Source: a virus. Taken from it: DNA of 47,660 nucleotides. A model generated the notes under the pieces. That model saw only the letters and a program-made list of their open reading frames with translations. It did not search any database and was not told where the DNA came from. The DNA is taken from the IMG/VR virus record IMGVR_UViG_3300037587_000820, positions 1-47,660 of that record. One strand, 5' to 3'. Shown here in pieces: positions 15,884 through 39,132 of this stretch. Each line of letters opens with the position of its first letter. The first letter of the stretch is position 1. The position numbers and the translations under genes were made by a program.

Positions 15884-16762
15884 ATGGACAGCAACGTAGG
15901 CCAAACGGACATCGCTGCCTCCCGTGAAGCCCGGGAGAAGATGGACGAAACGCTTTGGTGGAAGCCGAAGTCTGGCGAGGGCAAGAATTGGGGCGAGAAC
16001 TTCATCCGCGCCCTCCCGCCCCACGTTAACATGGAAGGCAAGTTCTACTTCGGCGTACCCCTTCACTTCGATGTCGGACCCGCGAAGGCCGTTGTTCCTT
16101 GTCCGCGGAAAGCCTTCGGAGAACTCTGCCCCATCTGCGTTAAAGGTTTCGATCTTATGAACTCCGGCAAGGAGGAGCTGGGGAAGGATATGCTGCCGAG
16201 CTGGCAAGCCTACATAAACGTCGTGGTGCTCGATGCGAACGGTCAGCCTGAAGGAACGGAGCCAAAGGTCCGGGTCTACGGCGCCAACCGTCAGGTTCTT
16301 GACGAAATCCTCGACATCATGGAGCAGAAGTTCGGCGATATCACCAACCTAGAGACTGGGCACAACATCATCATCCGCAAGCGGGGCTCGGGCCGGAAGG
16401 GCACCAAGTATCAGGTGGCCGCCGCTGATGAGCCAAGCGCTTTCGACCATCCTGAACTCGTCGCAAGCCTCCACGACCTAACTAAGATCTCACCCTACCG
16501 CTCCGCCGACGTACTCGCCGGCCTGTTGGAGGGAGAGGCGCGCAAGGATCCCTTTGATGCTGTCGAAGCGCCGGCTGAGAAGCCTGCCGCCATCACCGGC
16601 CCCGTTGCCCAGCCGGGTGACATGACGTTCGCTCCACCGCCGGATGATGCGGCGGCCGAAGAGCAAGGCACTCCAACCGAGCCAGATCCTGCTGCCAAGC
16701 CTGCCACCCAAGAGGAAGCTCAAGAAGCCCTTCGGCAGAGACTCAACGAAGGCAAGTCCTAG
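15884..16762 (+). CDS. gp32-like single-stranded DNA-binding protein
   Basis: A 292-aa protein. The central region CPRKAFGELCPIC with nearby basic and aromatic residues matches the zinc-containing core of T4 gp32-like SSBs. The C-terminal 80 residues are Pro/Ala/Glu/Asp-rich and disordered, the usual acidic protein-interaction tail. ATG behind AGGAACAAGG. It covers ssDNA at the fork and works with the RecA protein encoded 6 bp downstream. Confidence 0.85.
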   Translation: MDSNVGQTDIAASREAREKMDETLWWKPKSGEGKNWGENFIRALPPHVNMEGKFYFGVPLHFDVGPAKAVVPCPRKAFGELCPICVKGFDLMNSGKEELGKDMLPSWQAYINVVVLDANGQPEGTEPKVRVYGANRQVLDEILDIMEQKFGDITNLETGHNIIIRKRGSGRKGTKYQVAAADEPSAFDHPELVASLHDLTKISPYRSADVLAGLLEGEARKDPFDAVEAPAEKPAAITGPVAQPGDMTFAPPPDDAAAEEQGTPTEPDPAAKPATQEEAQEALRQRLNEGKS

Positions 16763-16768
16763 AGCCCA

Positions 16769-17800
16769 ATGGCTGCGACTAACGAGGCGGCTGCCTTCGT
16801 CGGCCGTCTTCAGAAGAAGAGTGCTGACTTCGATGTCCGGCTCGCTGACAACGAGCTTGACAGCGACGTCCAGGACTACCTGAGTACACAGGCCGCCAAC
16901 CTCAACCTAGCGATCGGCCGGCCGGGCATCCCGCAAGGCCGCCTGACCACCATCATCGGCAAGGAGGCGGGAGGCAAGAGCACCCTCGCCGTCCACCTGA
17001 TCGCCGAGACTCAACGCCGGGATGGAATTGCCGTGCTGATAGATGCCGAGCGGACGTACACGAAGGAGCGAGCTGAACGTATGGGTGTCGACCACAGCAA
17101 GCTCGTGTATACCGAGGGTGCCACGGTAGAGGGGACCTTCAAGTTCATCGACGCTATGGTCGACGATGTCCGGAAAGAAAATCCCGGTAAGCTGGTGACC
17201 ATCGTCTGGGATACTGTGTCGGGGAGTCCTACGGAAGCGGAGCTTGAAGGTGAGTACCATCCCGGCGGCCATGCCCGGGCGGTCAGCACGTGGATGAGGA
17301 TCCTCCACCCGAAGGTAGCCAAGCACCGCCTCACCCTTGTCATCGTCAATCAGCTCAGGTCCCGGATTAACTTCGGTGGTGGGTTCATGAGCCGCGGGCG
17401 TGGGGACACGATGATCGCCGAGAAGGCGTTGCGCTACTGGTCCTCCCTCATCCTCCACTGTGCCCAAGCAAACAAGATCCCCTCGAGCAACGAGCCCACC
17501 GGGATCATGAGCAGCGTGTACGTCGACAAGAACAAAGTCGCGCGTCCTTTCCGCACAGCCTTGGTGCCCATCGACTTCAACTACGGCATCGACCAGGTGG
17601 CCTGCAAGCTGGACGCTGCGAAGACGGCGGGGCTCGTGGAGGTGAAGGGGGCGTGGACCTACTACGGCGAGGGGAAGTTCCAATCAACAACGTGGCCGAA
17701 GTTCCTGGCCGAGCACCCCGACCTCGAAGAGAAGATCCTGGCGGCGCCTGAGAGTTGGCAGATTGAATTGGAGAAAGCGGATGCCGATCACGCAGACTAG
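16769..17800 (+). CDS. recA: RecA-like recombinase
   Basis: A 343-aa protein. Walker A is GKEAGGKS (64-71), followed by VLIDAERTY, Walker B region LVTIVWDTVSGS, and NQLRSRINFGGGF like the RecA L2 region. Close to bacterial RecA in layout rather than to T4 UvsX. Co-transcribed with SSB from P4. Strand exchange for recombination-dependent replication and repair. Confidence 0.9.
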   Translation: MAATNEAAAFVGRLQKKSADFDVRLADNELDSDVQDYLSTQAANLNLAIGRPGIPQGRLTTIIGKEAGGKSTLAVHLIAETQRRDGIAVLIDAERTYTKERAERMGVDHSKLVYTEGATVEGTFKFIDAMVDDVRKENPGKLVTIVWDTVSGSPTEAELEGEYHPGGHARAVSTWMRILHPKVAKHRLTLVIVNQLRSRINFGGGFMSRGRGDTMIAEKALRYWSSLILHCAQANKIPSSNEPTGIMSSVYVDKNKVARPFRTALVPIDFNYGIDQVACKLDAAKTAGLVEVKGAWTYYGEGKFQSTTWPKFLAEHPDLEEKILAAPESWQIELEKADADHAD

Positions 17801-18083
17801 CTGCCTTATCGTCCAGTGTGAGTGTGGGCTTGACTTTGAGCACTCGGATCATGTGCCGCATTACCGCTCTGAAGGCGAAGCCAGGGAAGACGTAGAGTGC
17901 TACGGCTGGGAGGTCTGGCAGGGGCATTGGTGGGAAGAGGACTGCGCTCCTCTCTGCGCCTGCGGCCATCCCATTGCTTCGGCCCACGATCACGGTGATG
18001 GGCCTTGTGAGGAGGACGACTGCGACTGTCAGGGGTTCCAGCTTGCGGAGGGGTACGCCGATGCTCACACACCTACGGGTTGA
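17781..18083 (+). CDS. Cys-rich protein, paralogue of 25755-26045
   Basis: A 100-aa protein from ATG 17781, overlapping the RecA 3' end. Cysteine pairs CEC, CAC and CDC, plus the core YGWEVWQGHWWEEDC, match the protein at 25755-26045 throughout (same order of CxCG-FEH, YGW, W-G-WW, Cys pairs, final C-C-FQ). Likely a zinc protein. Its end overlaps the SbcC-like gene by 23 bp. Function unknown. Confidence 0.65.
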   Translation: MPITQTSCLIVQCECGLDFEHSDHVPHYRSEGEAREDVECYGWEVWQGHWWEEDCAPLCACGHPIASAHDHGDGPCEEDDCDCQGFQLAEGYADAHTPTG

Positions 18084-19173
18084 CAACTACCAGGCCATCC
18101 AGTCCGCTGAGCTGGACCTGGCCCCCGTCACGCTCATTGTGGGCCACAACATGGCCGGCAAGTCCGCCATCCTCCGTGCCCTCCACGCCCTCTGCTTCAA
18201 CCGCACGGGGGACGGCTTCATCCGGGAGGGCGAGGATGGAGCCTCAGTATTCCTCCGCGCACAGGGGGGCCGCCCAGACGGCACCGATAGCTACCAGGTG
18301 ACGTGGACCAAGAAGCGGGGGAAGAGCGCAGACTACGAGACGCTTTGTTGGGGAGGAGAGAACTCCTACACCAAGACCGGCTCTGCTGTCCCCGACGCGA
18401 TTGTTGAGACCCTCAAAATCCGCCGCATCGAGGTGGACCCCACCTTCTCGATCGCGCCGCAGTTCAAGATGCAGCACGACACGCTGCTGATTCAGGAGTC
18501 GGGCTCCCGGCTCGCCCGCATCCTTGGCTCCCTGACCAAGCTGGACGTGGTGGTCAAGGCGCAGATGAGCTGCCGTAAGGACAGGGACCGCGCGAAGAAG
18601 GACAAGGAAGCCGCCGAAGAAGAAGCCCTCCGGCTCGGCGAGCAGGTAGCCGAGCTCGATTGGGTCCCGGACGCCCGTGCAAAGATAGACAGCATCAACG
18701 AGACCCTGGCCCTGGCCGCCCAAGCCGCCGAGAAGTACGAGAAGGTGCGGCGTCTGATAGGCGAACGACAGCGTTTGCAGGCTATTGTGGCGCGTAGGGA
18801 TAGCGTTCTGCAAGCAACCCTCAAGCTCATTGAGGCAGATACTGCACTGGGGTTCCTTAGGCGCGCACAGGAGCCCGCGCATCGGTATCCTCGCCTAGTC
18901 GCTGCCGCCGGCCGGACGCAGGCAATCCAGATCGCAAAGACGAATCTCCGTGGTGCCGGTGAGCAGCTACGAGAGCTGTCCGAGCGGAAGGAGGGGCTGA
19001 TCCTCTCTCAGAGACGCCGCACTGATTGGGGGATTGCATGTGAACGCCTTGCCGACAACCTGACCGCGCTGGAAAATCAGCAGGCGGAGGTGAACACCGT
19101 CGAAATGCTCTACAAGACCGCCTGTGACGAAGCAGAGTTGTGCGATCATTGCCCGCTTCGGGAAGGAGTGTAG
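18061..19173 (+). CDS. SbcC/Rad50-like ATPase, N-terminal half with zinc hook
   Basis: A 370-aa protein. The N-terminal ATPase lobe has Walker A GHNMAGKS (28-35) and is followed by a long coiled coil (about 170-355). The protein ends shortly after CDHCPL, a CxxC of the type found at the apex of Rad50/SbcC coiled coils. The Walker B/signature lobe is missing here and is encoded separately at 20865-21545, with an SbcD-like nuclease between. ATG at 18061 is a start inside a longer open frame; AGGGG precedes it. Confidence 0.82.
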   Translation: MLTHLRVDNYQAIQSAELDLAPVTLIVGHNMAGKSAILRALHALCFNRTGDGFIREGEDGASVFLRAQGGRPDGTDSYQVTWTKKRGKSADYETLCWGGENSYTKTGSAVPDAIVETLKIRRIEVDPTFSIAPQFKMQHDTLLIQESGSRLARILGSLTKLDVVVKAQMSCRKDRDRAKKDKEAAEEEALRLGEQVAELDWVPDARAKIDSINETLALAAQAAEKYEKVRRLIGERQRLQAIVARRDSVLQATLKLIEADTALGFLRRAQEPAHRYPRLVAAAGRTQAIQIAKTNLRGAGEQLRELSERKEGLILSQRRRTDWGIACERLADNLTALENQQAEVNTVEMLYKTACDEAELCDHCPLREGV

Positions 19174-19175
19174 TT

Positions 19176-19523
19176 ATGGGAGGCACATACGACGAGGAAG
19201 AACGCCACAACCTTGACGAGCTAACGCCACCAGATTCATCGGGAGAAGGCATGGGAGAACAAATGGCCGAACGCCTGCGGCTGGCAGACACGGAGGCAGT
19301 CCCCCTTCAGCAAGATCCGAAGGACAGGGCCCTTAGCGATGCGCGCGCAACAGTGGAGACCGCCATCACGGACGCTTTTGCGAAGACTGCTGACGTCACT
19401 GGCCTTCGATCGGGTCCGGGGACGGATCAGCTTCGAGACGCTCTCATTGCAAATCTCTTCGACTCGCCCTACCGCTGGGCAGTGGGCCGATACTTCAAAG
19501 AGACGGAGACAACTGCCCCATGA
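19176..19523 (+). CDS. Hypothetical acidic protein
   Basis: A 115-aa acidic protein between the SbcC-like N-half and the SbcD-like nuclease. ATG at 19176 follows GGAAGGAG; the frame upstream to 19140 lies in the previous gene. Largely helical in the second half. No recognised domain. Its TGA overlaps the nuclease ATG. Confidence 0.5.
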   Translation: MGGTYDEEERHNLDELTPPDSSGEGMGEQMAERLRLADTEAVPLQQDPKDRALSDARATVETAITDAFAKTADVTGLRSGPGTDQLRDALIANLFDSPYRWAVGRYFKETETTAP

Positions 19524-20485
19524 GTTCAAAGATCCTACTCGCCCACTGCCTCCACGCTGCCGACCGGCCTCCGCTCGGCCGCATCGACGGCTATCGGGAT
19601 CAGATCCTCGGCAAGCTCGTCGAGATTGGAGAGATCGCCAAGCAGACCAACGCCGACGTCGCCATCTTTGCCGGCGATCTCTTCCACTCGAAGCGGCCCA
19701 ACTTCGCCTCCCACTACCTTAGGACCGCCATCCAAGAAATCCTACGAACCTACCCGTGCGACGTCTGGCTGCTGCTGGGGAATCACGACCTTGGAGCGGC
19801 GACGGATCAGCAGGGGCTCCTCCGCCAACCAATTGCCGGGCTTGAAGGTGGCAACGTCTACATCGCTGCGGGAGACCGAGTCATACAGGTCCCGGACGCC
19901 ATCATCTTCTTCCGTCCGTACGACGCTGCACGTGACACCGACCCTGGCTACTACAAGCTAACTCCGCAGGAGCTGATGGTGGCAGAGAAGGCACCCTACG
20001 TCATCGTCGTGGGGCATGGTTCAGTGATCCCACCGGGGGAGGACCGCCCATATCCTCACGTCAAGTTCGAGGACATCGACACGACAGGGATCGGCGTCTA
20101 CTACTTCGGCCACCTTCATGAGTACCTCGGTGTCCATATCGTCGGTGCCATATGGTTCGCCGGCATGGGGTGTATCGGCCGGACGTCTCGGACAGAGGCC
20201 AACATGACCCACGAGCCGCGGGTAGTCGTCATTGAGAAGGATGGGGACCTGCCGACACAGTTCCACGAACGCAAGCTACAGGTGCTCCCGGCCTCGGAGG
20301 TCTTCATCGAGCAGATCCGTACGGAAGAGGGAGTCTCAGATGAGATTGTGGACTTCGCCGACAGCTTGGCTAAGGGGCTCTCGCTCGAGCAGATGCCACT
20401 CGACGCCTTGTCGGAGGGGCGGGGAGACATCGACCCGGATGTGAAGGCGAAGGTGAAGCACTACCTAGAAAGCGCAGGATTGTAA
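19520..20485 (+). CDS. SbcD/Mre11-like metallophosphoesterase
   Basis: A 321-aa protein with metallophosphoesterase motifs FAGDLFH (II), LGNHD (III), VVGHGS (IV) and FGHLHE (V). Motif I, normally D-x-H, reads HCLHAADRPP here, so the first metal-binding Asp seems replaced by Cys. The C-terminal 80 residues are a helical capping region. With the split SbcC-like ATPase on both sides it should form an Mre11/Rad50-type complex trimming DNA ends. ATG overlaps the previous stop by 4 bases. Confidence 0.85.
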   Translation: MSSKILLAHCLHAADRPPLGRIDGYRDQILGKLVEIGEIAKQTNADVAIFAGDLFHSKRPNFASHYLRTAIQEILRTYPCDVWLLLGNHDLGAATDQQGLLRQPIAGLEGGNVYIAAGDRVIQVPDAIIFFRPYDAARDTDPGYYKLTPQELMVAEKAPYVIVVGHGSVIPPGEDRPYPHVKFEDIDTTGIGVYYFGHLHEYLGVHIVGAIWFAGMGCIGRTSRTEANMTHEPRVVVIEKDGDLPTQFHERKLQVLPASEVFIEQIRTEEGVSDEIVDFADSLAKGLSLEQMPLDALSEGRGDIDPDVKAKVKHYLESAGL

Positions 20486-20694
20486 TGGCTACTCTGTATC
20501 TGAAAGAAGCTCCCCCGTGGAGCGGGCATGGGAACCATTCTCGCCTGAGCGGCGAAGTTATTGGTTGGGCCGAGCAGGGGAGTGTTCTCATTTTCCAATG
20601 CACCATGTTCGCACATCCTCTCAGGCTCAGTATCCCCGCCCACAACATTCTGGCAGTTGAGGAGGAACCCGATGGCCGACCGACAGGAGATTGA
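20485..20694 (+). CDS. Small hypothetical protein
   Basis: A 69-aa protein whose ATG overlaps the nuclease TAA. Beta-rich pattern (VIGWAEQGSVLIFQC). The C-terminus overlaps the start of the coiled-coil ORF at 20672. Function unknown; its position between nuclease and ATPase halves makes an accessory role possible. Confidence 0.5.
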   Translation: MATLYLKEAPPWSGHGNHSRLSGEVIGWAEQGSVLIFQCTMFAHPLRLSIPAHNILAVEEEPDGRPTGD

Positions 20695-20938
20695 ACAGCT
20701 ACGCACCCGTTACCAGCGGGCCCAGCAGGACCTCGCCGTCGCCGAGAAGGAAGTAAGCACCGCCCAGACGAGCCTGACCTCGGTCGAGGAGGAATTGAAG
20801 GGCCTTGGCTTCGACCCGGCCGGCGACCTCGACGCCCAACTAGCCGCCAAGGAAGGAGAATTGGATGGAATCCTTGCCAATGTCGAGCAGCTACTCAGCG
20901 GCAGCGAGACTCAGCTTGCTCCAGAACCGCGGAGCTAA
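20672..20938 (+). CDS. Coiled-coil protein, descending arm of split SbcC-like ATPase
   Basis: An 88-aa coiled coil (IEQLRTRYQRAQQDLAVAEK and similar heptads) with ATG behind GAGGAGG. It looks like the start of the returning Rad50/SbcC coil. It ends at a TAA at 20936-20938 while the next frame (+1), already open since 20865, continues the coil into the ATPase lobe. Either two separate proteins or one read through a +1 frameshift. Confidence 0.6.
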   Translation: MADRQEIEQLRTRYQRAQQDLAVAEKEVSTAQTSLTSVEEELKGLGFDPAGDLDAQLAAKEGELDGILANVEQLLSGSETQLAPEPRS

Positions 20939-21545
20939 CGCTGACCGCACCATCACCGGCGCCGAAGGCCAACTCAACCTCCTCCGGTCGCAAGGAGCAG
21001 AGATTGCCAATCGTCGTACAGCCGCGGAAAGCCTACAGGTGACGCTCACAGCCGCCCTAGCCGTCCTTCAGGAGCTTGAAGGGGCATGGAGGCGATCCTT
21101 CGAGTCCCGGCTCTCTAGCGTCGTCTCAGACGGATTGACGGCTATCTTCGGGGAGGAGATCAAGCTCGAGGTGAAGAGCACCGTCAAGAGGGATGCCACC
21201 TCGATGCAGCTCGTGCTCACCCAAGGCGGCATCGAGATAGACGACATCGTAGGGGGGACAGGCGGCAGCCTCGTGAGCGTACTGGACGTGCTGCTCAAGA
21301 TCCTCCTGCTGGTGTCGGCGCCGGACCTGCGGCGAGTGCTGGTGCTGGATGAAAGTTTCAGAATGGTCGAGGCCAGGCACCTGCCGGCATTGGGGCAGTT
21401 GCTTCGGGAGCTGTCCGACAGGCTTTCCATGCAATTCATTTTGGTTTCTCATGAGACCGAGCTACTGGACGCCGCGGACATCGTGTACGAAGTGGCCAAC
21501 GGAGGTGTGAAGTGCATCAAGAGCCAGCACGAAGAACGCCAGTAA
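20865..21545 (+). CDS. SbcC/Rad50-like ATPase, C-terminal half
   Basis: A 226-aa protein. The N-terminal coiled coil is followed by the C-terminal ATPase lobe: a Gly-rich signature region VGGTGGSLVSVLDVLLK, Walker B RVLVLDESF with D-loop, and H-loop LVSHETEL. It complements the N-half at 18061-19173. ATG at 20865 has AAGGAAGGAG at good spacing although this lies within the preceding gene; ATG 20880 is an alternative. Separate expression or a +1 shift at the stop of 20672-20938 are both possible. Confidence 0.78.
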   Translation: MESLPMSSSYSAAARLSLLQNRGANADRTITGAEGQLNLLRSQGAEIANRRTAAESLQVTLTAALAVLQELEGAWRRSFESRLSSVVSDGLTAIFGEEIKLEVKSTVKRDATSMQLVLTQGGIEIDDIVGGTGGSLVSVLDVLLKILLLVSAPDLRRVLVLDESFRMVEARHLPALGQLLRELSDRLSMQFILVSHETELLDAADIVYEVANGGVKCIKSQHEERQ

Positions 21546-21889
21546 CCGCGCTCAACGACCTCGCCGCAGAGATTCACCAGACTGCCAAGGACAAGGGCTG
21601 GTGGGAGGAGGACCGCAACTTTGGGGAGATGATCGCCCTCGTCCACAGTGAGCTGTCCGAGGCACTGGAAGCGTGGCGGGAGGACCAATCCCCTGTCTGG
21701 TTTAGGGATACCAGCAAGAAGCCGGAGGGGCCAGCAGTGGAATTGATTGATGGCCTCATCCGCATCCTCGATCTCCTCGAACACATGCGAGAATCTGGTT
21801 CGCGGTGTTTCTCTATCGAGGAGACCCTGCGGGCCAAGATGGACTACAACAAGACGCGGCCTCACCGACACGGAGGGCTGAAGGCATGA
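21512..21889 (+). CDS. MazG-like nucleotide pyrophosphohydrolase
   Basis: A 125-aa protein with the MazG-type metal motif: LVHSELSEALEAW (E-x2-E) and, about 35 residues on, VELIDGLIRILDL (E-x2-D). The C-terminal KTRPHRHGG is common in phage members. GTG start overlaps the ATPase gene end. Hydrolyses non-canonical or excess NTP/dNTPs; in phages also linked to modified-nucleotide pools or stringent-response control. Confidence 0.82.
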   Translation: MHQEPARRTPVTALNDLAAEIHQTAKDKGWWEEDRNFGEMIALVHSELSEALEAWREDQSPVWFRDTSKKPEGPAVELIDGLIRILDLLEHMRESGSRCFSIEETLRAKMDYNKTRPHRHGGLKA

Positions 21890-22656
21890 CCCCCGCCCGA
21901 GCTGACCGTCGACGAGCAGAACGGGAAGGGCGTAAGCTAACGACGCCCGACCCGCTCATCCAGCCGGCGCCTCCGCTGCCTCCGGTGAACGCCGTCATCT
22001 CCATCCCGGCATACCGCTCGGTCGAGATGGCGCTGGTTGGAATTCTACTTCAGATCGAGCAGCGTAGCTGTACTACAGGCCCCATCTACGAGTTCCTGCT
22101 CAAGTGGAATGATTCGCTCATCACCCGGGCCCGCAGCAAGATCGCCTCCTCCTTCCTGACAGACCGGCCGAACTCGGACATCCTCGTCATGATCGACACG
22201 GACATGACCTTCAACCTCCCCGCGCTCGATGCGCTCGTTGCGCTCGCCCGGGAGAAGAAGGGGATCGCCGCTGCCCCTGTCGCTATCCGGTCGGCGGCTA
22301 CATGGGCCAACGTACGCTGCCTGCCCGACACACCCATCGACTTCGGCCCCGACACCGAGCCCCAAGAGGTGCGCTACATCGGTGCCGCCTTCATGGCCAT
22401 CCACCGGAGCGTCTTCGAGAAGCTGCGAGAGGGGCTAAAGAACGTCGGCTTCGACGACCCTTGGTGGAAGTTCTTCCCTGAGATCGACGTGGACTATAAG
22501 GGCCGGGGCCCGGAGGGTTTGTCGGAGGACTACACCTTCTGCCATCTTGCGCGCGAGGCTGGCTTCGGTGTGTGGTGCCTGACCAACCATCAGGTGGGCC
22601 ACATGGGCCTATATGAGTTCAAGATTTCGCCGACGAAGGGGTACATGTTTGACTAA
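21886..22656 (+). CDS. Glycosyltransferase, GT-A/family 2-like
   Basis: A 256-aa protein with NAVISIPAYRSV at the start of the fold, DxD motif MIDTDM, GAAFMAIHRSVFE in the middle and SEDYTFCHLAREAGFGVW near the C-terminus, a layout usual for GT2-like transferases. ATG overlaps the MazG-like stop. Acceptor unknown: candidates are phage DNA, a virion protein or host surface glycan. A second glycosyltransferase and a UDP-sugar dehydrogenase follow. Confidence 0.8.
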   Translation: MTPARADRRRAEREGRKLTTPDPLIQPAPPLPPVNAVISIPAYRSVEMALVGILLQIEQRSCTTGPIYEFLLKWNDSLITRARSKIASSFLTDRPNSDILVMIDTDMTFNLPALDALVALAREKKGIAAAPVAIRSAATWANVRCLPDTPIDFGPDTEPQEVRYIGAAFMAIHRSVFEKLREGLKNVGFDDPWWKFFPEIDVDYKGRGPEGLSEDYTFCHLAREAGFGVWCLTNHQVGHMGLYEFKISPTKGYMFD

Positions 22657-22960: not shown

Positions 22961-23697
22961 CTAGCTCCATAGATGTTCTCATACCCTCCCGCCAGCGCGC
23001 ATCCCTGCTCGACCGTGCCGTCCAATCCTTGTGGGAGAATGCCACAGATAAGGAGCGGGTGAAGTATCTTGTCGCCGTCGACCAGAACGATCCCGAGCTC
23101 TCCACCTATCAGCAACTGAATTGCAGCGAACTCATCTTTGCACGCCGCCTTGGTTATGAGTTCCTGCACTCCTACTACAATGGGCTGGCTGCTTGGCCTC
23201 TATATTCAGGAGACTGGATGCTCCTATGGAACGACGACGCCATGATGCTTACGGAGGGATGGGACGACATCATCGCCGCGGAGGACCACACCGTCCCGAA
23301 CGTGCTGAACTTCACGGGCGAGCTCAACCTGTTCCCCGCCGTGAGCCGGCCCTTCTACGACGTGCTCGGGCACCTGAGCTTGCAGTGCCACACCGACACC
23401 TGGATCCAGGAGGTGGCTCGCGCAGCAAGGATCGAGAAGCCGCTCATGGGGAAGATTCAGATCGACCACGTCCGGGAGCGGATCGACGACGAGACCAAGC
23501 GCGCGACCCAAAGGCTGTACGAAGTCACCTCGCCGGCATTCATGTCGGATGAGATGAAGCGTTTGAGGACAGAAGACGTGAAGAAGATTCAGGGGGCGAT
23601 GAATTGTATAGAAAACAAAGAGATCCAGCAGGAAATTGAAGACGGTGTAGCAGAAGCGAAGGCGTGGGTTCATAGAGATATAGGAGAGGCCACATGA
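22957..23697 (+). CDS. Glycosyltransferase family 2-like protein
   Basis: A 246-aa protein. DVLIPSRQRASLLDRAVQSL at the N-terminus and GDWMLLWNDDAMM (acidic metal-binding cluster) fit a GT-A fold. The C-terminal 60 residues are charged and helical. GTG start overlaps the previous stop. Likely acts with the neighbouring transferase and dehydrogenase. Confidence 0.75.
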   Translation: MTSSIDVLIPSRQRASLLDRAVQSLWENATDKERVKYLVAVDQNDPELSTYQQLNCSELIFARRLGYEFLHSYYNGLAAWPLYSGDWMLLWNDDAMMLTEGWDDIIAAEDHTVPNVLNFTGELNLFPAVSRPFYDVLGHLSLQCHTDTWIQEVARAARIEKPLMGKIQIDHVRERIDDETKRATQRLYEVTSPAFMSDEMKRLRTEDVKKIQGAMNCIENKEIQQEIEDGVAEAKAWVHRDIGEAT

Positions 23698-24950
23698 AAA
23701 TCGGATTCATTGGACTCGGCAAGCTTGGGCTTCCGATCGCGCTCGCCATCGACGCGGCCGGGCACGCGGTCACGGGCTACGACGTCAGCGACAAGCCAGT
23801 AGAGCAGCTTCTTGCACGTAAGCTACTCCACTACGAGAAGGGGGCGGACGAACTGCTTCAAAACCACAGCATCCAGATGGCCATCAAGCTCGAGAACGTC
23901 GTGCTCGACAAGGACATCGTGTTCGTGTGCGTCCAAACCCCTCATGCTCCCGAGCCAGACGGCAGCACGCCGGTCCCCAACGAGCGTCGGGACTTCGAGT
24001 ACGGCTTCCTAGCACAGGTGCTCAAGGACATCGGGCGGGCTCCTCGCGGCGATAATCGCGTACCAATCGTCGCCGTTATCTCAACGGTTTTACCCGGAAC
24101 ACTGGAGCGCCTTCAGCACCTCATCCCAGACTACCAACTCGTCTACAACCCTTCCTTCTGTGCAATGGGGACGGTCATCCCAGATTACCAGAATCCTGAG
24201 TTCGTTCTCCTCGGCACAGAAGACACGGCCCGAGCACGCGATCTATGGCTCGGAGGTAAGCTAGCAGCCTTCCACGGCCACCAGACGAACGTCATCCTCA
24301 TGTCCATCCCCTCCGCCGAGCTGACGAAGGTGGCGTACAACACGTTCATCGGGATGAAGATCGTCTTCGCCAACACGATGATGGAGATCTGCCACCACAC
24401 CGGCGCCGACGTGGACGACGTCACGAACGCCTTAGGTCAGGCAACAGATCGGCTCATGTCTCCTCGGTACATGTCCGGCGGGATGGGAGACGGCGGCCCC
24501 TGCCACCCGCGGGACAACATCGCCATGTCCTGGTTAGCGGAGCATCTGAACCTAAGCAGCGATCTCTTCGGGGGGATCATGCGTATCCGGGACCATCAGA
24601 CGGAGTTCCTTGCCCGCTTGGTTCAGCACTACCACGAGATCACTGGGAAAGAGGTGGTGATCCTCGGCAGGGCCTACAAGCCCGAGTCCGCACTCACGGA
24701 CGGGTCGCCAGCAACGTTGCTCGCCCACCACCTCAATGAGCTTGGCGTGGATCTTTGGGGCCACTGGGATCCCTTCGCCAAGGATACGTCGTTCCTGCAC
24801 GACAAACGCCCGGCCATCTTCGTCATCGCCACCAAGCACGCGCAGTTCGCCGAGCAGGAGTTCCCGGCCGGCAGCGTCGTGCTAGATCCGTTCGGCTACA
24901 TCCCGGACCGGGAAGGCGTGACGGTCGTCCGGATAGGGAGAAAGTCATGA
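23694..24950 (+). CDS. UDP-glucose/GDP-mannose dehydrogenase family
   Basis: A 418-aa NAD-dependent enzyme. Rossmann motif GLGKLG at the N-terminus, central helical domain with SAELTKVAYNTFIGMKI, catalytic Cys in GGPCHPRDN, and the C-terminal UDP-binding domain (VVILGRAYKPES). Oxidises a nucleotide sugar to its uronic acid. Unusual for a phage; together with the two glycosyltransferases it implies a sugar-acid building block for a glycosylation step. Start overlaps the previous stop by 4 bases. Confidence 0.9.
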   Translation: MKIGFIGLGKLGLPIALAIDAAGHAVTGYDVSDKPVEQLLARKLLHYEKGADELLQNHSIQMAIKLENVVLDKDIVFVCVQTPHAPEPDGSTPVPNERRDFEYGFLAQVLKDIGRAPRGDNRVPIVAVISTVLPGTLERLQHLIPDYQLVYNPSFCAMGTVIPDYQNPEFVLLGTEDTARARDLWLGGKLAAFHGHQTNVILMSIPSAELTKVAYNTFIGMKIVFANTMMEICHHTGADVDDVTNALGQATDRLMSPRYMSGGMGDGGPCHPRDNIAMSWLAEHLNLSSDLFGGIMRIRDHQTEFLARLVQHYHEITGKEVVILGRAYKPESALTDGSPATLLAHHLNELGVDLWGHWDPFAKDTSFLHDKRPAIFVIATKHAQFAEQEFPAGSVVLDPFGYIPDREGVTVVRIGRKS

Positions 24951-26045: not shown

Positions 26046-26334
26046 GATATACTGCACATCCCGCCAAGACGTTCACGCCTGCGCGATCCCTTGGGACTAC
26101 GCTGCTCACCCCGGCGATGGCACAGATCACGAGTGCGACTGTGGCTTCGGCTGGATTGACCGGAGGTATCAGAAGTCGCAGAAGCCACAGCTAGCCTACC
26201 TCATTGGGGAGGATTCCTGGTCGTTCTCGATAAGCCTCGACCGCGAACGGGAAGTCGGTCCCGTGTTCAGGCTTTGGTTCGGCCGCCGAGGCATCCATCT
26301 ACCCCTGAGATGGAGACCATGGGGGAAAGTCTGA
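26032..26334 (+). CDS. Hypothetical protein
   Basis: A 100-aa protein with Cys/His residues (CTSRQDVHAC, then HECDCGFGW) in the first half and a beta-rich basic C-terminus. ATG overlaps the previous gene. Its TGA overlaps the ATG chosen for the polymerase. Confidence 0.5.
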   Translation: MAGPRIYCTSRQDVHACAIPWDYAAHPGDGTDHECDCGFGWIDRRYQKSQKPQLAYLIGEDSWSFSISLDREREVGPVFRLWFGRRGIHLPLRWRPWGKV

Positions 26335-29300
26335 TGCCCCCAAGTAAGACGTGTGAACTCTGCCCCGCTCTCAAGTCCGCCCGCACTCAGATCGTCTTCG
26401 GCCGGAGCGTCGGCGACAAGCCGACCTACGCCTTCATAGGCCAGAACCCAGGAAAAGAAGAAGATGACTCCGGCCGCCCCTTCGTTGGCCAATCCGGCCA
26501 GGTCCTAGCGGCTCTACTCAAGGGCGCCGATATCTCTCTTCAGGATGTGTACCTCGACAACGCCGTAAAGTGCCTAAGCCCAGGGAACAGGAAGCCCAAG
26601 ACGCCCGAGATCACCGCATGCCACAACTTCCTTCTCGAAGACCTAAAGGCGATCGACCCACAGGTCATCATCACCATGGGCGGGCCCGCTGCCGAGAGCC
26701 TGTACGGCAAGACTTCCCTGGACGATGTGATCGGCCGGGTCTACATGCACCCCGTCCTGAACAAACCGGTCGTCCCCACCTACCATCCGGCCTTCTTGCT
26801 CCGTGGCCAGTGGTCCGCCGTGCCGCTCGTGCTGGCCCACCTGGAGACGGCCAAGCGGGTGGTAGCGGGCACGCAACAGGTGGAAGAGATGGGCGAGTAC
26901 CACACCATCACGACCCTGGATCAGCTGCGAGCGTTGCGCGACTACCTCCTGTCGTGCGACATGATCCATATCGATTCGGAGACTACCGGGCTGAACTGGA
27001 TGACGGACGAGATCATGTGCCTCTCCTTCGCCGGGAAGCCGGGAGAGGGCTACACCGTGCCGATCCTCCAGCGCGGGCTGCCTACGGAGAAGGGTTTCAC
27101 AGATCCAGTACACTTCTGGGACGTCGAAGAGGAACGCGACGTCAATCGGTTCCTCGCTGAAATCCTCTGGTCCAATGTCCCTAAGGCTCTTCAGAACGGA
27201 TCATTTGACATCCGATTCTTTGAGCGGGGAGGAGGAGACCGCCACGTCACTGCGCTAACGGCATTCGACTGGCATCTCCTAAATCTCCGCCAAGATACTC
27301 TGCTCCTTAGCCGCACCATCAACGAGAACCTGCCCTCCAAGCTGGCACCGCACGAGCAGTCGGCTCTGCTTGGGCGGCACACGGGGATGCCGGCCTATGG
27401 GGACGAGCTCAAGAAGGCATCCGCCAACAAGACCAAGATGGCAGAGGCCGACGATGATCTGGTTTGGGGGCTTGCGGCCGCCGACGCTGATGGTGTCGCC
27501 CGCCTCACGCCTGTCCTAGTTGACAAGCTCGTGCAGGACGGTGACAGCCAGTGGGCATATAACAATATTACGATTCCGATGGTCCGGGCCTGCCAGGAGA
27601 TGACCCGGCGGGGCCTGCTTGTCGACGTCCCCTACTTCGACAAGCTCTGCAAGTGGCACGACGGCCTCGCCGAAGACCTGTCCGAGAAGGTCTACGAGGC
27701 GGCGGGCCAGGAGTTCAATATCAACTCCCCGCAACAGGTGCAGAAGGTCCTCTTCGAGGACATGGGCCTAACTTCTCTGAAGAAGACGGATGCGGCGGCC
27801 GACTGCCCTGACTGCCAGAAGAACGTCTACTGCAAGAAGCACAACTCGACGGATGAAGAATCTCTCCTTGCACTCAAGGAGCAGGCAGCAACGTCAAGCC
27901 CACCCCCTACCGTTATTCCGCTCCTCGACGCCATCCTCGAGTGGCGCTCCCTGCACAAGCGCCGCGGGACGTACCTCGCCGGCACGGGAGGAGCGTCACA
28001 AGGCTTCAAGGGTCACATCCGGCCTGACGACCGGATCCACTTCTCCTTCAACGTCCTGGGTGCCGCCACGCAGCGCCTCTCATCTCAGGACCCCAACGGA
28101 CAGAACATCCCTAAGGACGTCAAGATCCCCGAACTGAAGACGAAGAACGCCTTCCGCCGTACGTTCATTGCTCCGGAGGGCCACGTCCTCATGGAGGCGG
28201 ACTGGTGTCTCGCCCCAAAGACGCGGGTGCTCACAGAAGACTTGCGGTGGAAGCCTTGTAGAGAGGTGGTTGCAGGAGATCGCCTCATTGCGATCGATGA
28301 GGAAATCTCAAACACCGCCGGCCGTAAGTATCGGACGACAACCGTGCAGCACGCAGGACGGAGGAGGGCTGACTGCTATAGCATCCGAACCAATCTCGGC
28401 GAGGTTATTGCAAGCGCGGACCACCCCTGGCTCACGCGCATTCAGCATCCGCATGGAGTTTATAAGTGGACTGTGACTCGGAGCCTGTATCCGGGGATGA
28501 AGATTCGGAGGGGGCCCAGTGTATGGGAGGAGCCAACAGACGAGATAACCGCCCGCGAGCTTGGTTATCTTGGCGGAGTCTTTGATAGAGAAGGATCCCT
28601 TTATACAGCCGGTCGGGGAGCGATCCTCTCCTTCTCACAACGTCCTGGGAAGGTTCTTGATTACACCATTGGCCTCCTTGAAAAGTACGGCTTCTCCCCC
28701 CGCGACTATGGAGAAAAGGGCGGCAAAACTGCATTTTCAAAGACAAAGGATTGTCGCACCTACTACATCACCGACATGGCCAACATTATGCGATTTCTTG
28801 GAATGGCACGGCCCCTCCGGCTGCTAGAGAAAGCTATTCCCAGTCTTTGGGAGGGGCGACGTCCGGGAAACGGGCGCTATGGAAAAGGCCGCGAACTTTA
28901 CGCGACAGTTGAGAGTGTTGAGTTTATCGGAGAACGGGAGGTCGTCTCTCTTCAGACTGACACGCACACCTTCATTGCTGAAGGAATGTTCACTCATAAT
29001 TGTCAGCTCGAGCTGTGGGTCTTAGCCTACAAGCTGGCCGAAGAGTTCGGGGACCGGGCCCTCCTCGACATGCTAGAGAGCGGTGTGGACGTCCACACCG
29101 TTGTCTCCCGAGCTATCTGGCCAGACATCGGCGCCGACCTCGACGACTTCGAGTGGGAGAAAGAGCACGACGAGACCCGGACGAAGGGGAAGGTCTTCAC
29201 CTTCGGCATCACATACGGCATGACCGTCATGGGGATTCAGGAGCGCCTCCGCTGCGGAGAAGCAGAGGCAGCCTCTCTTCTCTCCGCCTACTTCGGCATC

Positions 29301-29867
29301 GTCCCCGGACTGCCCGCCTACATCGAGTCCGTCCACAAGACCATCCGTGCGGGGGACATCCTAGAGAACGTGTGGGGGATGCGCCGGCGTTTCCCTGAGG
29401 CGGCGGTCATGCTCGCTGTTCCGAGCTCGAGAGTGAACTACGCCATCGAGGACCTCTACCGGATCGGCGTGAACTGGCCCATCCAGTCTGGCGGTGGGGG
29501 CCTGCACAATCAGGCTCACATCAAGTCCGAACAATCGGAGCAGCTCAACGAACGGGCGAAGATTGTCAACGCCGTCCACGACTCCTGCCTCTCCGAGACA
29601 CCGGCGCCGGACCTTGCCACCTGCCTGGAGACAGCGTGGATGATCAAACAATTTTGGCAAGGAATCGCTATGAACACCGTGCGGCCGAACGGCGAGAAGC
29701 TCGGCTGGCAGGTGCCGGTGGAGGTGAAGTGGGGCCATGACTGGGGGGACCTGCACCACGTCCTCACAGCGAAGGGAGAATATCTGGATGAGCGTGAGAA
29801 GGAACGAGAACGCGCAGAAGATGCTCAAGCTGCGGAAGGAACGATGAATGGTGAAAGAACACTGTGA
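26334..29867 (+). CDS. polA: UDG-DNA polymerase I fusion with intein
   Basis: A 1177-aa precursor. Residues 1-180 form a family-4 uracil-DNA glycosylase: Fe-S cysteines in CELC plus two further Cys, motif GQNPGKEED (Gln where Glu is usual) and YHPAFLLR. From about 205 comes a 3'-5' exonuclease (HIDSETTGL at about 212; NGSFDIRFF near 288), then a family-A polymerase. Motif A EADW|CQLELWVLAY is split by a 265-aa intein (625-889); motif B RTKGKVFTFGITYG starts at 949 and motif C VNAVHDS at 1078. After splicing the enzyme is about 912 aa. ATG 26334 overlaps the previous stop and has GGGGGAAAG upstream. UDG-PolA fusions are known in SPO1-like phages. Confidence 0.93.
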   Translation: MPPSKTCELCPALKSARTQIVFGRSVGDKPTYAFIGQNPGKEEDDSGRPFVGQSGQVLAALLKGADISLQDVYLDNAVKCLSPGNRKPKTPEITACHNFLLEDLKAIDPQVIITMGGPAAESLYGKTSLDDVIGRVYMHPVLNKPVVPTYHPAFLLRGQWSAVPLVLAHLETAKRVVAGTQQVEEMGEYHTITTLDQLRALRDYLLSCDMIHIDSETTGLNWMTDEIMCLSFAGKPGEGYTVPILQRGLPTEKGFTDPVHFWDVEEERDVNRFLAEILWSNVPKALQNGSFDIRFFERGGGDRHVTALTAFDWHLLNLRQDTLLLSRTINENLPSKLAPHEQSALLGRHTGMPAYGDELKKASANKTKMAEADDDLVWGLAAADADGVARLTPVLVDKLVQDGDSQWAYNNITIPMVRACQEMTRRGLLVDVPYFDKLCKWHDGLAEDLSEKVYEAAGQEFNINSPQQVQKVLFEDMGLTSLKKTDAAADCPDCQKNVYCKKHNSTDEESLLALKEQAATSSPPPTVIPLLDAILEWRSLHKRRGTYLAGTGGASQGFKGHIRPDDRIHFSFNVLGAATQRLSSQDPNGQNIPKDVKIPELKTKNAFRRTFIAPEGHVLMEADWCLAPKTRVLTEDLRWKPCREVVAGDRLIAIDEEISNTAGRKYRTTTVQHAGRRRADCYSIRTNLGEVIASADHPWLTRIQHPHGVYKWTVTRSLYPGMKIRRGPSVWEEPTDEITARELGYLGGVFDREGSLYTAGRGAILSFSQRPGKVLDYTIGLLEKYGFSPRDYGEKGGKTAFSKTKDCRTYYITDMANIMRFLGMARPLRLLEKAIPSLWEGRRPGNGRYGKGRELYATVESVEFIGEREVVSLQTDTHTFIAEGMFTHNCQLELWVLAYKLAEEFGDRALLDMLESGVDVHTVVSRAIWPDIGADLDDFEWEKEHDETRTKGKVFTFGITYGMTVMGIQERLRCGEAEAASLLSAYFGIVPGLPAYIESVHKTIRAGDILENVWGMRRRFPEAAVMLAVPSSRVNYAIEDLYRIGVNWPIQSGGGGLHNQAHIKSEQSEQLNERAKIVNAVHDSCLSETPAPDLATCLETAWMIKQFWQGIAMNTVRPNGEKLGWQVPVEVKWGHDWGDLHHVLTAKGEYLDEREKERERAEDAQAAEGTMNGERTL
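28206..29000 (+). mobile_element. Intein with LAGLIDADG-type endonuclease domain
   Basis: 795 bp, 265 aa, in frame within the polymerase. Starts with Cys1 (CLAPKTRVLTED), has block B with SADHPW (Ser for the usual Thr of TxxH), a LAGLIDADG-like motif ELGYLGGVFDREGSL, and ends EFIGEREVVSLQTDTHTF...GMFTHN followed by extein Cys. All splicing residues (C1, block B His, terminal His-Asn, +1 Cys) are present, so splicing is likely. Only one LAGLIDADG motif is obvious and the length is short for a full homing intein, so the nuclease may be single-motif or decaying. Confidence 0.92.
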
Positions 29868-36358: not shown

Positions 36359-37972
36359 CTACTCTTTTCCCTCGTAGTATTCCATGTTCCTCTTCAGCCG
36401 CTCGTCATTCGGATGGGCCGAGAGCGCCTTTGCCCCGTACAGCCGCGCCTCCTCGGAACGCCCCAGCTTGTGCAAGCAGACAGCCAGGAGGTCGTACCGG
36501 CGCCAATCGTAGATGTCCAGGTCATCGAAGAAGCCTTTCGGGCCCGGCACTGTGGACGCCATGAACCACGTCGCCCCCTCTTCGTATCGCTGTTGCTCGT
36601 AGCGCAGCTTGCCCAGATAGTAGTAGCCCTCCGCCACCGTTGGGCACACCTCGATGGCCTTGAGGTACGCCTGCGCCGCCGCCTCTGCGTCCCCAAGCGC
36701 CTGCTGGCAGAGCCCGGCAATGAGGCACCCCCGCGCCCTCTGCACCGGCCAGGAGACGGGCGCCTGAAGCATGAGCCCCACCAGGCCGATTGCCTCGTGG
36801 TAGTGCCCCTTGTTGTGGTGCTCACGGGCCAGGTAGAAGAGGCTACGTTCCTCCGGTGCGCCCTCGATACTGAGGTTGCTTCGTAGCGCCACGAAGATGT
36901 CTGTGTGGTTGGGCCGGTCGCCGCTGGGCCTATTCAGGTGCTCAACCAGGATCTGCGGGGCCGCCGTCCTGACCGGGCCATTCAGCCAATTGTGAGCAGC
37001 GCCTTCCCAGCGCCACGTCCCGTTGTGCTTGTGAAGCATCTCTTGGCGAAGGAACTCCTTGAGGGGCGTGCCGGTTGCGTCGCGCTGAAAGATCAACTTG
37101 GGAGAGAGGCCGTCCTGCTTGCCCTCTTCTACGATGCCGCGAATAGCCTCCTTGCCTTCCAGTAGAATCTCGTCGGCGTCCTGCCAGTAGACGTACTGGC
37201 CTGAGCATAGACTCTCGGCGTAATTGCGGGCCGCCGCAAAGTCATCGACCCACGGGAAATGGCCAATCTTGGCACCGAAGGACTCGGCGATCTCGATGGT
37301 CTTGTCCGTCGAGCCTGTGTCCACAACGACCAACTCATCCCCGACGCCTCGTAGCGATTCGAGACACTGGCCCAGCAGCTCCTCTTCGTTCTTGGTGATG
37401 AGCACGACGGTGAGCTTGGGCCGGCCCGCTGGGTGCGCCGAGGCGATCACGTACCTGTCCGAGTAGGCGTGGCCGCACACCTCGCCGAAGGGTTGCAGCT
37501 TCTCGGTCATGCCGTTGAGGTGGAAGGTTCGGACATGCGCGGTGTCGGGCACGGCGTCGCCGTTGGGCGTAGTGACGATCAGGCGGCCGTCCGGCGCCAG
37601 GGCACGCTTCACCTTCTTGAGCAGCCTGGCCTCCGCGTCATCGTCCAGGTGTTCGAGCAGCTCGCCGAGAACGATGGTATCCCACGGACCCTTTGGGGTA
37701 GGCAGCCCTTCGCCCAGGAAGTCGCGGACGATGAACTGGGACGAGAAGCTAGGCGCACGCTCCTGGGCACGGCGGCAGGCTTCCCGCGAGAAGTCCACGC
37801 CCACATAGAAGGCTCGCCGCCCGTCGCCCAGCGCCGCTGCCAAGGCCCCATCACCGCAACCGACATCGAGCACCCGACCCCGGCAGAGCTCGGCAACGAA
37901 CTGGACGCGCTTCTCATCCACCGCGTACTCGCCCCGGTACACCTTGTCGTAATAGGCGGCGGTTTTCATCAT
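36359..37972 (-). CDS. Methyltransferase-glycosyltransferase-TPR fusion
   Basis: A 537-aa three-domain protein. Residues 1-185: class I SAM methyltransferase with [15 protein letters not shown] and [11 protein letters not shown]. Residues 187-400: GT2 glycosyltransferase with [31 protein letters not shown] and QDADEIL. Residues 400-537: TPR-like repeats ([19 protein letters not shown]). Such fusions occur in bacterial surface-glycan clusters. Here it lies between tail genes and overlaps the collagen-like gene's stop, so a virion protein may be its substrate. Confidence 0.82.
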
Positions 37973-39132
37973 GTGGGGTCAGCCTCTAGAGTCACGGTGC
38001 ATTGGGTGATCGTTGTGACCTCATCGATGTTAACCCGCATGACATCGCGGGCTGCCATCGTCGTTGTCCAGCCTGTGAGGGTCTGATCTTCGTCCTTGAC
38101 ACCACCGGCGATTTCCAGTTCATGGCCAGTACAGATTGAGTCAGCGTTGACAGGTGGATGGTTGGCATAGCTATCAACGAAGATGTCCACCTTGATGCTA
38201 CCACTTACGTCGGCCAGGAGCCGTCCGCGCTTCAAGGTGAGCGCCACGTTTGGCATGTCGATTGCTGGCCGGGGGCCGGTTTCGAGCACACTGCCGCCAC
38301 CGTCCATGACGATGAGGATCTTGCGCGTGCTAGCGCCCGTAGGTCCCGTCGAGCCTGTTGGCCCAGTGGGCCCGGTGGGCCCCGTTCCGGCAGTCCCGGA
38401 GGTTCCTTGCGCTCCAGTGGGCCCGGTCGGACCTGTTGGTCCTGTCGGTCCCGTCCCGCCCGTAGCACCGGCAGTCCCGACGGTGCCTTGAGAGCCTGTC
38501 GGGCCAGTGGGCCCGGTGGGGCCGGTCGCTCCCGCTGTACCGACAGTTCCTTGACTTCCGGTAGGGCCAGTGGGTCCCGTTGGGCCAGTTGCACCAGCCG
38601 TTCCTACTGTGCCTTGAGAACCTGTCGGGCCGGTAGGTCCAGTTGGTCCCGTACTACCCGTGGCCCCGGCTGTTCCTACCGTACCCTGTGATCCCGTCGG
38701 CCCCGTTGGTCCTGTCGGCCCGGTGGGCCCCGTTCCTGCCGTTCCCGCGGTTCCCTGGCTGCCTGTCGGGCCGGTAGGGCCAGTGGGTCCCGTTGGGCCC
38801 GTACCAGCCGTTCCGGCTGTCCCCTGTGATCCTGTCGGACCAGTTGGTCCGGTTGGTCCGGTTGGTCCGGTTGGGCCTGTTGGACCCGTAGCCCCTGTTC
38901 CCGCCGTCCCTTGAGCACCAGTCGGGCCTGTCGGCCCCGTAGCTCCTGTAGGGCCTGTTCCGGCAGTGCCGGAGGTTCCAGCAGTCCCCTGCGGCCCAGT
39001 GGGCCCGGTTGGCCCAGTAGGGCCGGTTCCGGCTGTCCCCGCCGTTCCCGCTGTCCCTTGTGATCCGGTTGGACCTGTGGGGCCGGTCGGGCCCGTACCA
39101 GTCGTAGCAGCATAGAAGTCCCAACCACTCAT
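37969..39132 (-). CDS. Collagen-like repeat fibre protein
   Basis: A 387-aa protein. Residues 13-266 are Gly-X-Y triplets, mostly GPT, with regular breaks of the form [13 protein letters not shown]. The last 121 residues (from [13 protein letters not shown]) form a globular beta domain that may trimerise and nucleate the triple helix. Gly-Pro-Thr collagen repeats are common in phage tail fibres and are often O-glycosylated in Gram-positive systems. The adjacent methyltransferase-glycosyltransferase is a natural candidate for modifying it. Confidence 0.85.
38335..39096 (-). repeat. Collagen-coding DNA repeat tract
   Basis: About 760 bp of imperfect 9-bp (Gly-Pro-Thr) repeats with about ten interrupting cassettes. 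Codon choice at the repeat varies, so it is protein-level rather than simple DNA repetition. Prone to slippage and recombination, so the copy number in an assembly may be unreliable. Confidence 0.85.

Follow-up and report, generated by a model that had tools for sequence, protein, structure and literature searches.

Organization of the locus

The window, by which we mean the whole stretch of DNA analysed, is a linear 47.7-kb virus record that is possibly incomplete. Six + strand genes are read at 18061-21545, exactly the coordinates at which a sequence-only reading of this DNA had placed an SbcC/Rad50-like ATPase split at its zinc hook around SbcD. The first (18061..19173, +; ATG at 18061, stop codon ending 19173) codes for a Rad50/SbcC N-half of 370 aa with the Walker A motif GHNMAGKS, a Q-loop glutamine (Gln138), a helical arm and a C-terminal CxxC. 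This zinc-hook motif, CDHC (19141..19152, +), occupies residues 361-364, and the stop codon follows six residues later (C-terminal sequence AELCDHCPLREGV), such that the N-half ends just past its CxxC, as had been claimed. Next come a small gene of 115 aa (19176..19523, +) with no family match, a gene for an SbcD/Mre11-like nuclease of 321 aa (19520..20485, +), and a second small gene of 69 aa (20485..20694, +) without a convincing match; neither small gene is constant in the module. Beyond these lie a gene for a coiled-coil protein of 88 aa (20672..20938, +), a conserved third piece whose usual place is directly 5' of the C-half, and the Rad50/SbcC C-half itself, of 226 aa (20865..21545, +), which has a long helix, the signature GGTGGS, the Walker B motif VLVLDES and the H-loop SHE, and which contains neither a Walker A motif nor a CxxC. 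The C-half start is located within the coil gene in a different frame. Measured from the N-half stop, the coil begins 1.5 kb and the C-half 1.7 kb downstream, in agreement with the earlier description of the returning coil and the Walker B lobe as separate genes with an SbcD-like nuclease and two small genes in between. A Shine-Dalgarno-like stretch is clear at five of the six starts, and the 69-aa gene has a weak AGGA.

A UvsX/RecA-like recombinase (16769..17800, +; PHROG 97, 1e-54) is encoded directly 5' of the N-half, and the window has further genes of a recombination and replication context, including those for SSB, primase and helicases. Between the recombinase and the N-half, at 17763-18083, is a short Cys/His-rich ORF (CECGLDFEHSDH, CACGHPIASAHDH) whose product possibly binds zinc.

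The two halves have complementary ATPase motifs

The N-half matches Pfam AAA_23 (1e-9) and PHROG 16465, an 'exonuclease' family (3e-21), and the C-half matches PHROG 15167, an 'ATPase' family (1.5e-15). When compared with the PDB, the profile of the relatives' N-halves has Rad50 as its top match (5f3w, 7e-15), and that of their C-halves has Rad50 C-terminal fragments (3qkr_B, 1e-16; 1ii8_B, 3e-16). Modelled singly with AlphaFold, both halves take Rad50-like folds. The N-half model (pLDDT 84) has a lobe followed by three helices (residues 161-198, 202-269 and 278-358) that run up to the CxxC, with Rad50 1f2u as the top Foldseek match; the C-half model (pLDDT 92) has one long helix (residues 12-95) and a lobe, and its Foldseek matches have an SMC head fragment on top, followed by Rad50 1ii8_B.

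Among the features by which Rad50/SbcC proteins are recognized, an ABC-ATPase N-lobe with Walker A and Q-loop is present in the N-half together with the CxxC that closes the outgoing arm, and an ABC-ATPase C-lobe with signature, Walker B and H-loop is present in the C-half. The signature is altered, being of a GGG type and not the canonical SGGE, and the serine before the motif is not constant among relatives. The N-lobe, hook and C-lobe are encoded by separate genes, and because there is no single continuous polypeptide we class this as a split variant of Rad50/SbcC and not as an ordinary member. The same partition of motifs is seen among relatives, with Walker A in 63 of 66 complete N-halves as against one of 79 C-halves, and a Walker-B-like motif in 78 of the 79 C-halves as against a single N-half.

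The SbcD-like nuclease

The nuclease matches Metallophos (2e-10) and TIGR00619 sbcd (1.5e-8, under the curated cut-off), and contains the calcineurin-type phosphoesterase domain expected of SbcD/Mre11 proteins. Of the metal ligands expected (D-x-H, GD, GN/QH, H, GH/DxH) one is missing, Cys10 standing in place of the motif I aspartate, and the rest are present. At this position (19547-19549, TGC) the window reads AHCLH, in contrast to the (x)DxH of its relatives, in which the aspartate is found in 66 of 67. A change from GAC to TGC needs two base changes and a single sequencing error is thus unlikely; to judge from the motif, nuclease activity of the window protein appears doubtful.

The split module is widespread in phages

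A first pass of viral-contig scans yielded 151 C-half relatives, of which 80 were kept, and further loci were added later; ORFs were called and searched with profiles, and once near-duplicates had been dropped, 84 non-redundant loci were left. The search for relatives that the sequence-only reading had proposed was thus productive: the same split is found at the 84 loci, with no N-C fusion among them. At 57 of the 84 the order N-half, nuclease, coil, C-half is kept on one strand, and many neighbours overlap. In close pairs of relatives dN is mostly well below dS for the N-half, nuclease, coil and C-half, with one of the coil comparisons resting on few changes, and by this measure all four genes are under purifying selection. 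A scan of genome contigs with the C-half gave one weak and uninformative match, in a Spirochaetales MAG. The module is widespread in phages and not peculiar to the window phage.

Five phage genomes illustrate the range of arrangements. In Bacillus phage vB_BboS-125, gp32 is the N-half (ending CPLCEQTHKGGGC), gp34 the coil and gp35 the C-half, with an AP2-domain gene, gp33 (L093:5137-5709), between the N-half and the coil; the pieces carry the annotations exonuclease and ATPase, and the SbcD gene (L093:6977-7957) is left unannotated in the record. The four genes are adjacent in Microcystis phage Mvi-JY20, where the hook is CSQC, and are interspersed with others in the 485-kb LR745208, including a sliding-clamp-like gene that was identified by eye. 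In the circular record of Tunturiibacter phage Tunturi_5 the N-half is gp181 (~128 kb), SbcD is gp177 and the C-half is gp14 (19 kb), whereas Microbacterium phage Magritte has its C-half at 0.3 kb, its N-half at 93.8 kb and Mre11 at 119.7 kb. With the halves ~108 kb apart in Tunturi_5 and >39 kb apart in Magritte, they must act in trans.

A full-length SbcC elsewhere in the phage had been named in advance as evidence that would speak against a split. In each of the five genomes, from cultured or huge phages, the C-half gives one match and the N-half one strong match, and no second, full-length SbcC was found in them. Nor was one found in the window, where the scan gave one N-half and one C-half, and where each of the ten largest ORFs either codes for another protein or has no assignment.

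The zinc-hook motif is confined to the N-half

A CxxC lies <=30 residues from the C-terminus in 63 of 66 complete N-halves (0.28 expected from shuffling), and 59 of those 63 have the form CPxC, from which the CDHC of the window departs. Both cysteine columns are invariant in the 56 N-halves of alignment A10, and the tail beyond the CxxC is about 2-21 residues long among relatives. Of the exceptions, L018 (2777-3809) has its N-half as two overlapping ORFs of 296 and 71 aa, the latter of which bears the CxxC; the break may be a frameshift or a sequencing error, and the exception possibly a calling artefact. A calling artefact may also account for L070, in which a CPLC is 46 residues short of the N-half end, and the N-half of Magritte truly ends without a CxxC.

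A CxxC is found in one of 79 C-halves and in no coils, and zinc could therefore join only N-halves. The proposal that the two arms are joined only through zinc or partner proteins thus needs amending in its first part, as this distribution of cysteines makes zinc unlikely to join an N-arm to a C-arm; it could pair two N-halves.

A contiguous control is provided by gp45 of the Paenibacillus larvae phage Fern, a short SbcC-like ATPase of 509 aa in whose N-part the N-half profile can be followed from Walker A up to and including the hook, CRVCKQPL. In Fern this hook is internal to the chain, and the N-half genes terminate at exactly that point. The Fern protein further differs in that the C-half profile misses its C-part, and its neighbours are RecT and a metallo-hydrolase, not SbcD. 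Matches in Paenibacillus phages, considered as candidate split genes, were rejected, being one contiguous gene.

Arm lengths and the small coil

The N-arm ranges from 146 to 303 residues in relatives, with lengths that cluster near 150, 195, 240 and 290 (e.g. L004, L003 and L093; alignments A8 and A10). These steps have a period of about 46-49 residues, a far better fit than is given by smoothed resamples, and the arm is self-similar at offsets of 44 and 47, above the heptad background. Judged by these patterns, the N-arm may pack on itself in hairpin units. The lengths of the C-helix and coil are constant, and the length of the N-arm does not correlate with that of C-helix plus coil (Spearman -0.07, n=54), which suggests that the returning arm is more than a simple mirror image of the N-arm. 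Rad50/SbcC proteins characteristically have antiparallel coiled-coil arms of equal length; a mirror-arm model, with antiparallel pairing reflected in length covariation, is unsupported here.

The coil is ~79-103 residues long in relatives, and its profile matches generic coils in the PDB together with a weak match to Rad50 (6zff, E 0.04). It probably covers part of the returning arm, and a position beside the hook is our guess. It is possible, though we do not favour it, that the coil is a separate regulatory or DNA-tethering subunit outside the Rad50 arm, since its sequence is homologous to none of the defined Rad50 segments, and since it is predicted to form a helix-turn-helix hairpin, and keeps a constant length though the N-arm varies. 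Its gene, however, lies directly 5' of the C-half, which it often overlaps, and is under purifying selection.

Alternative explanations of the split

The missing metal ligand of the window nuclease and the atypical CDHC hook might indicate that this contig was misassembled, or that a full-length SbcC gene in it has decayed or recently suffered a frameshift. We consider this extremely improbable because the split is shared by 84 non-redundant loci, among them those of cultured phages that infect Bacillus, Microcystis, Tunturiibacter and Microbacterium, the intervening genes are intact and conserved, the genes of the window have their own ribosome-binding sites, and the relatives are under purifying selection. 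Misassembly would have been the expected explanation had relatives possessed a contiguous gene, but they are split alike and none is fused, which refutes both misassembly and decay. It is also highly improbable that the halves are rejoined into an ordinary SbcC after transcription or translation, whether by an intron, a split intein or a frameshift. Phage genes interrupted by inserts are known, and the AP2 gene in the interval between N-half and coil of vB_BboS-125 looks mobile; however, the interval holds a conserved nuclease gene, the halves can be as far as ~108 kb apart, and the N-half continues for just about 2-21 residues beyond the CxxC. An Rfam search of 16500-22500 gave no match at E<=0.1 and a Pfam search revealed no intein domain, and an intron or intein was rejected as lacking such support.

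A different explanation is that the halves are not partners, with each having another role, such as in anti-defence or regulation, and the nuclease alone representing SbcD. The halves are indeed unlinked in some phages, their signature and arm are unlike those of canonical Rad50, and their pairing is deduced indirectly. We nonetheless regard this as quite unlikely, because each half is missing exactly what the other supplies, their co-occurrence and order are constant, their best structural matches are complementary fragments of one Rad50 head, and both are present in all five complete genomes tested.

Probable assembly of Rad50 from separate chains

The claim that SbcC/Rad50 is divided at its zinc hook, with SbcD between the parts, is borne out by motifs, profiles, AlphaFold models and the 84 loci. 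The genes are separate and selectively maintained, carry complementary ATPase motifs, are split after the hook in many phages, and code for products with Rad50-like predicted folds; from these features we infer physical assembly, zinc pairing, a place for the small coil, and activity. We think it very likely that they form a phage Mre11-Rad50 (SbcCD) complex in which Rad50 is divided at its zinc-hook apex into distinct polypeptides, two of which come together spontaneously as the head.

A single Rad50 head is built jointly by the N-lobe and the C-lobe, and ATP is held between two heads. The crystal structures 1f2t and 1ii8 are of separate N and C chains, and split pieces could thus form heads without a covalent link. 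In the phage complex the N-half would contribute Walker A and the Q-loop together with the outgoing arm, which bears the CxxC hook; the C-half would bring the signature motif, Walker B and the H-loop, along with a returning helix that is shorter. These lobes would associate to form one ABC head, by analogy with the separately expressed P. furiosus Rad50 fragments in crystals, and ATP is predicted then to link one such head to another. Through its C-terminal part the SbcD-like nuclease would bind at the coil roots, two N-half hooks would pair through zinc leaving the C-half unheld at the apex, and the N and C chains would meet via the ATPase lobes, coil roots and nuclease. Its role is probably to prepare DNA ends on which the adjacent UvsX/RecA recombinase acts during recombination-dependent replication and repair, comparable to that of T4 gp46/47; the neighbouring UvsX/RecA, SSB, primase and helicases suggest T4-like recombination-dependent replication.

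Counting against the separate-chain complex, association of the halves is deduced from sequences and models, the arm lengths are unmatched, the signature is altered, the window nuclease has no motif I aspartate, and Magritte has no terminal CxxC. There may be a large class of phages with a three-piece Rad50, in which the hook is on the outgoing arm only and that arm is lengthened in ~47-residue units that have no counterpart on the returning side, where a separate hairpin subunit plus the C-half make up the arm, although we offer this only tentatively. If true, the apex would be permanently open and DNA ends would have to be tethered in the absence of a closed coiled-coil ring, and two-chain head assembly would itself be a possible control point.

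Rad50 is usually regarded as requiring one continuous chain that runs out to the zinc hook and returns, and the extent of signalling along the arms between hook and head is debated. Our findings suggest that the two arms of the otherwise universal Rad50/SbcC need not form one continuous protein. A natural and widespread cut at the apex would turn hook, arm and head into parts open to mixing, omission and swapping, and with these as separate parts the need for a continuous apex is directly testable with small proteins.

Relation to known systems

The phage module shares with SbcCD and Mre11-Rad50 (E. coli SbcCD, archaeal and eukaryotic MR, T4 gp46/gp47) the ABC ATPase motifs, the zinc-hook CxxC, a calcineurin-type nuclease partner in the same operon and a RecA/UvsX-type recombinase alongside. 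It differs in that Rad50 in those systems is a single chain through the hook with an SGGE signature, whereas the phages have separate genes for the N-arm with hook, the coil and the C-half, and GGG in their C-halves. Co-expressed Rad50 N and C fragments in crystals (1f2t, 1ii8, 3qkr) likewise form one head from two chains in the absence of an intact coil, but these are laboratory-made with the arms removed, while the phage version is natural and its N chain retains the arm and hook.

Viral rearrangement of the same complex has been described in the form of Mre11/Rad50 fusion proteins, in Mimivirus R555 and others (PMC3175470), which are fusions and not splits. The Mre11-Rad50 fusion of Bacillus phage 0305phi8-36 is missing one of two P-loop segments (PMC3175470), and by comparison with the phages described here it may be a nuclease joined to one Rad50 half of a split system. 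Jumbo phages are described as having split Pol III alpha and split RNA polymerase beta and beta' (PMC7824862), which are different enzymes but similarly large replication or transcription enzymes made in separate pieces, some from distant genes; the part of that survey drawn on here gives SbcC as nearly universal and mentions no split. In a search of open-access papers we found no description of a split Rad50/SbcC. Both halves are already known as PHROG families under generic names, and the 'exonuclease' PHROG 16465 and the 'ATPase' PHROG 15167, annotated separately, would be two halves of one enzyme.

Other features of the window

A UDP-glucose dehydrogenase is encoded at 23694-24950, a little 3' of the window C-half, and in Magritte (L002:2393-5335) a UDP-glucose dehydrogenase and glycosyltransferases come right after the C-half. 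A 1197-aa protein (26274-29867) has a uracil-DNA-glycosylase-family domain fused to a 3'-5' exonuclease and family A DNA polymerase that follow it. On the - strand, a 537-aa fusion (36359-37972) of a methyltransferase, a family 2 glycosyltransferase and TPR repeats adjoins a collagen-repeat protein (37969-39132) and tail-fibre-like genes.
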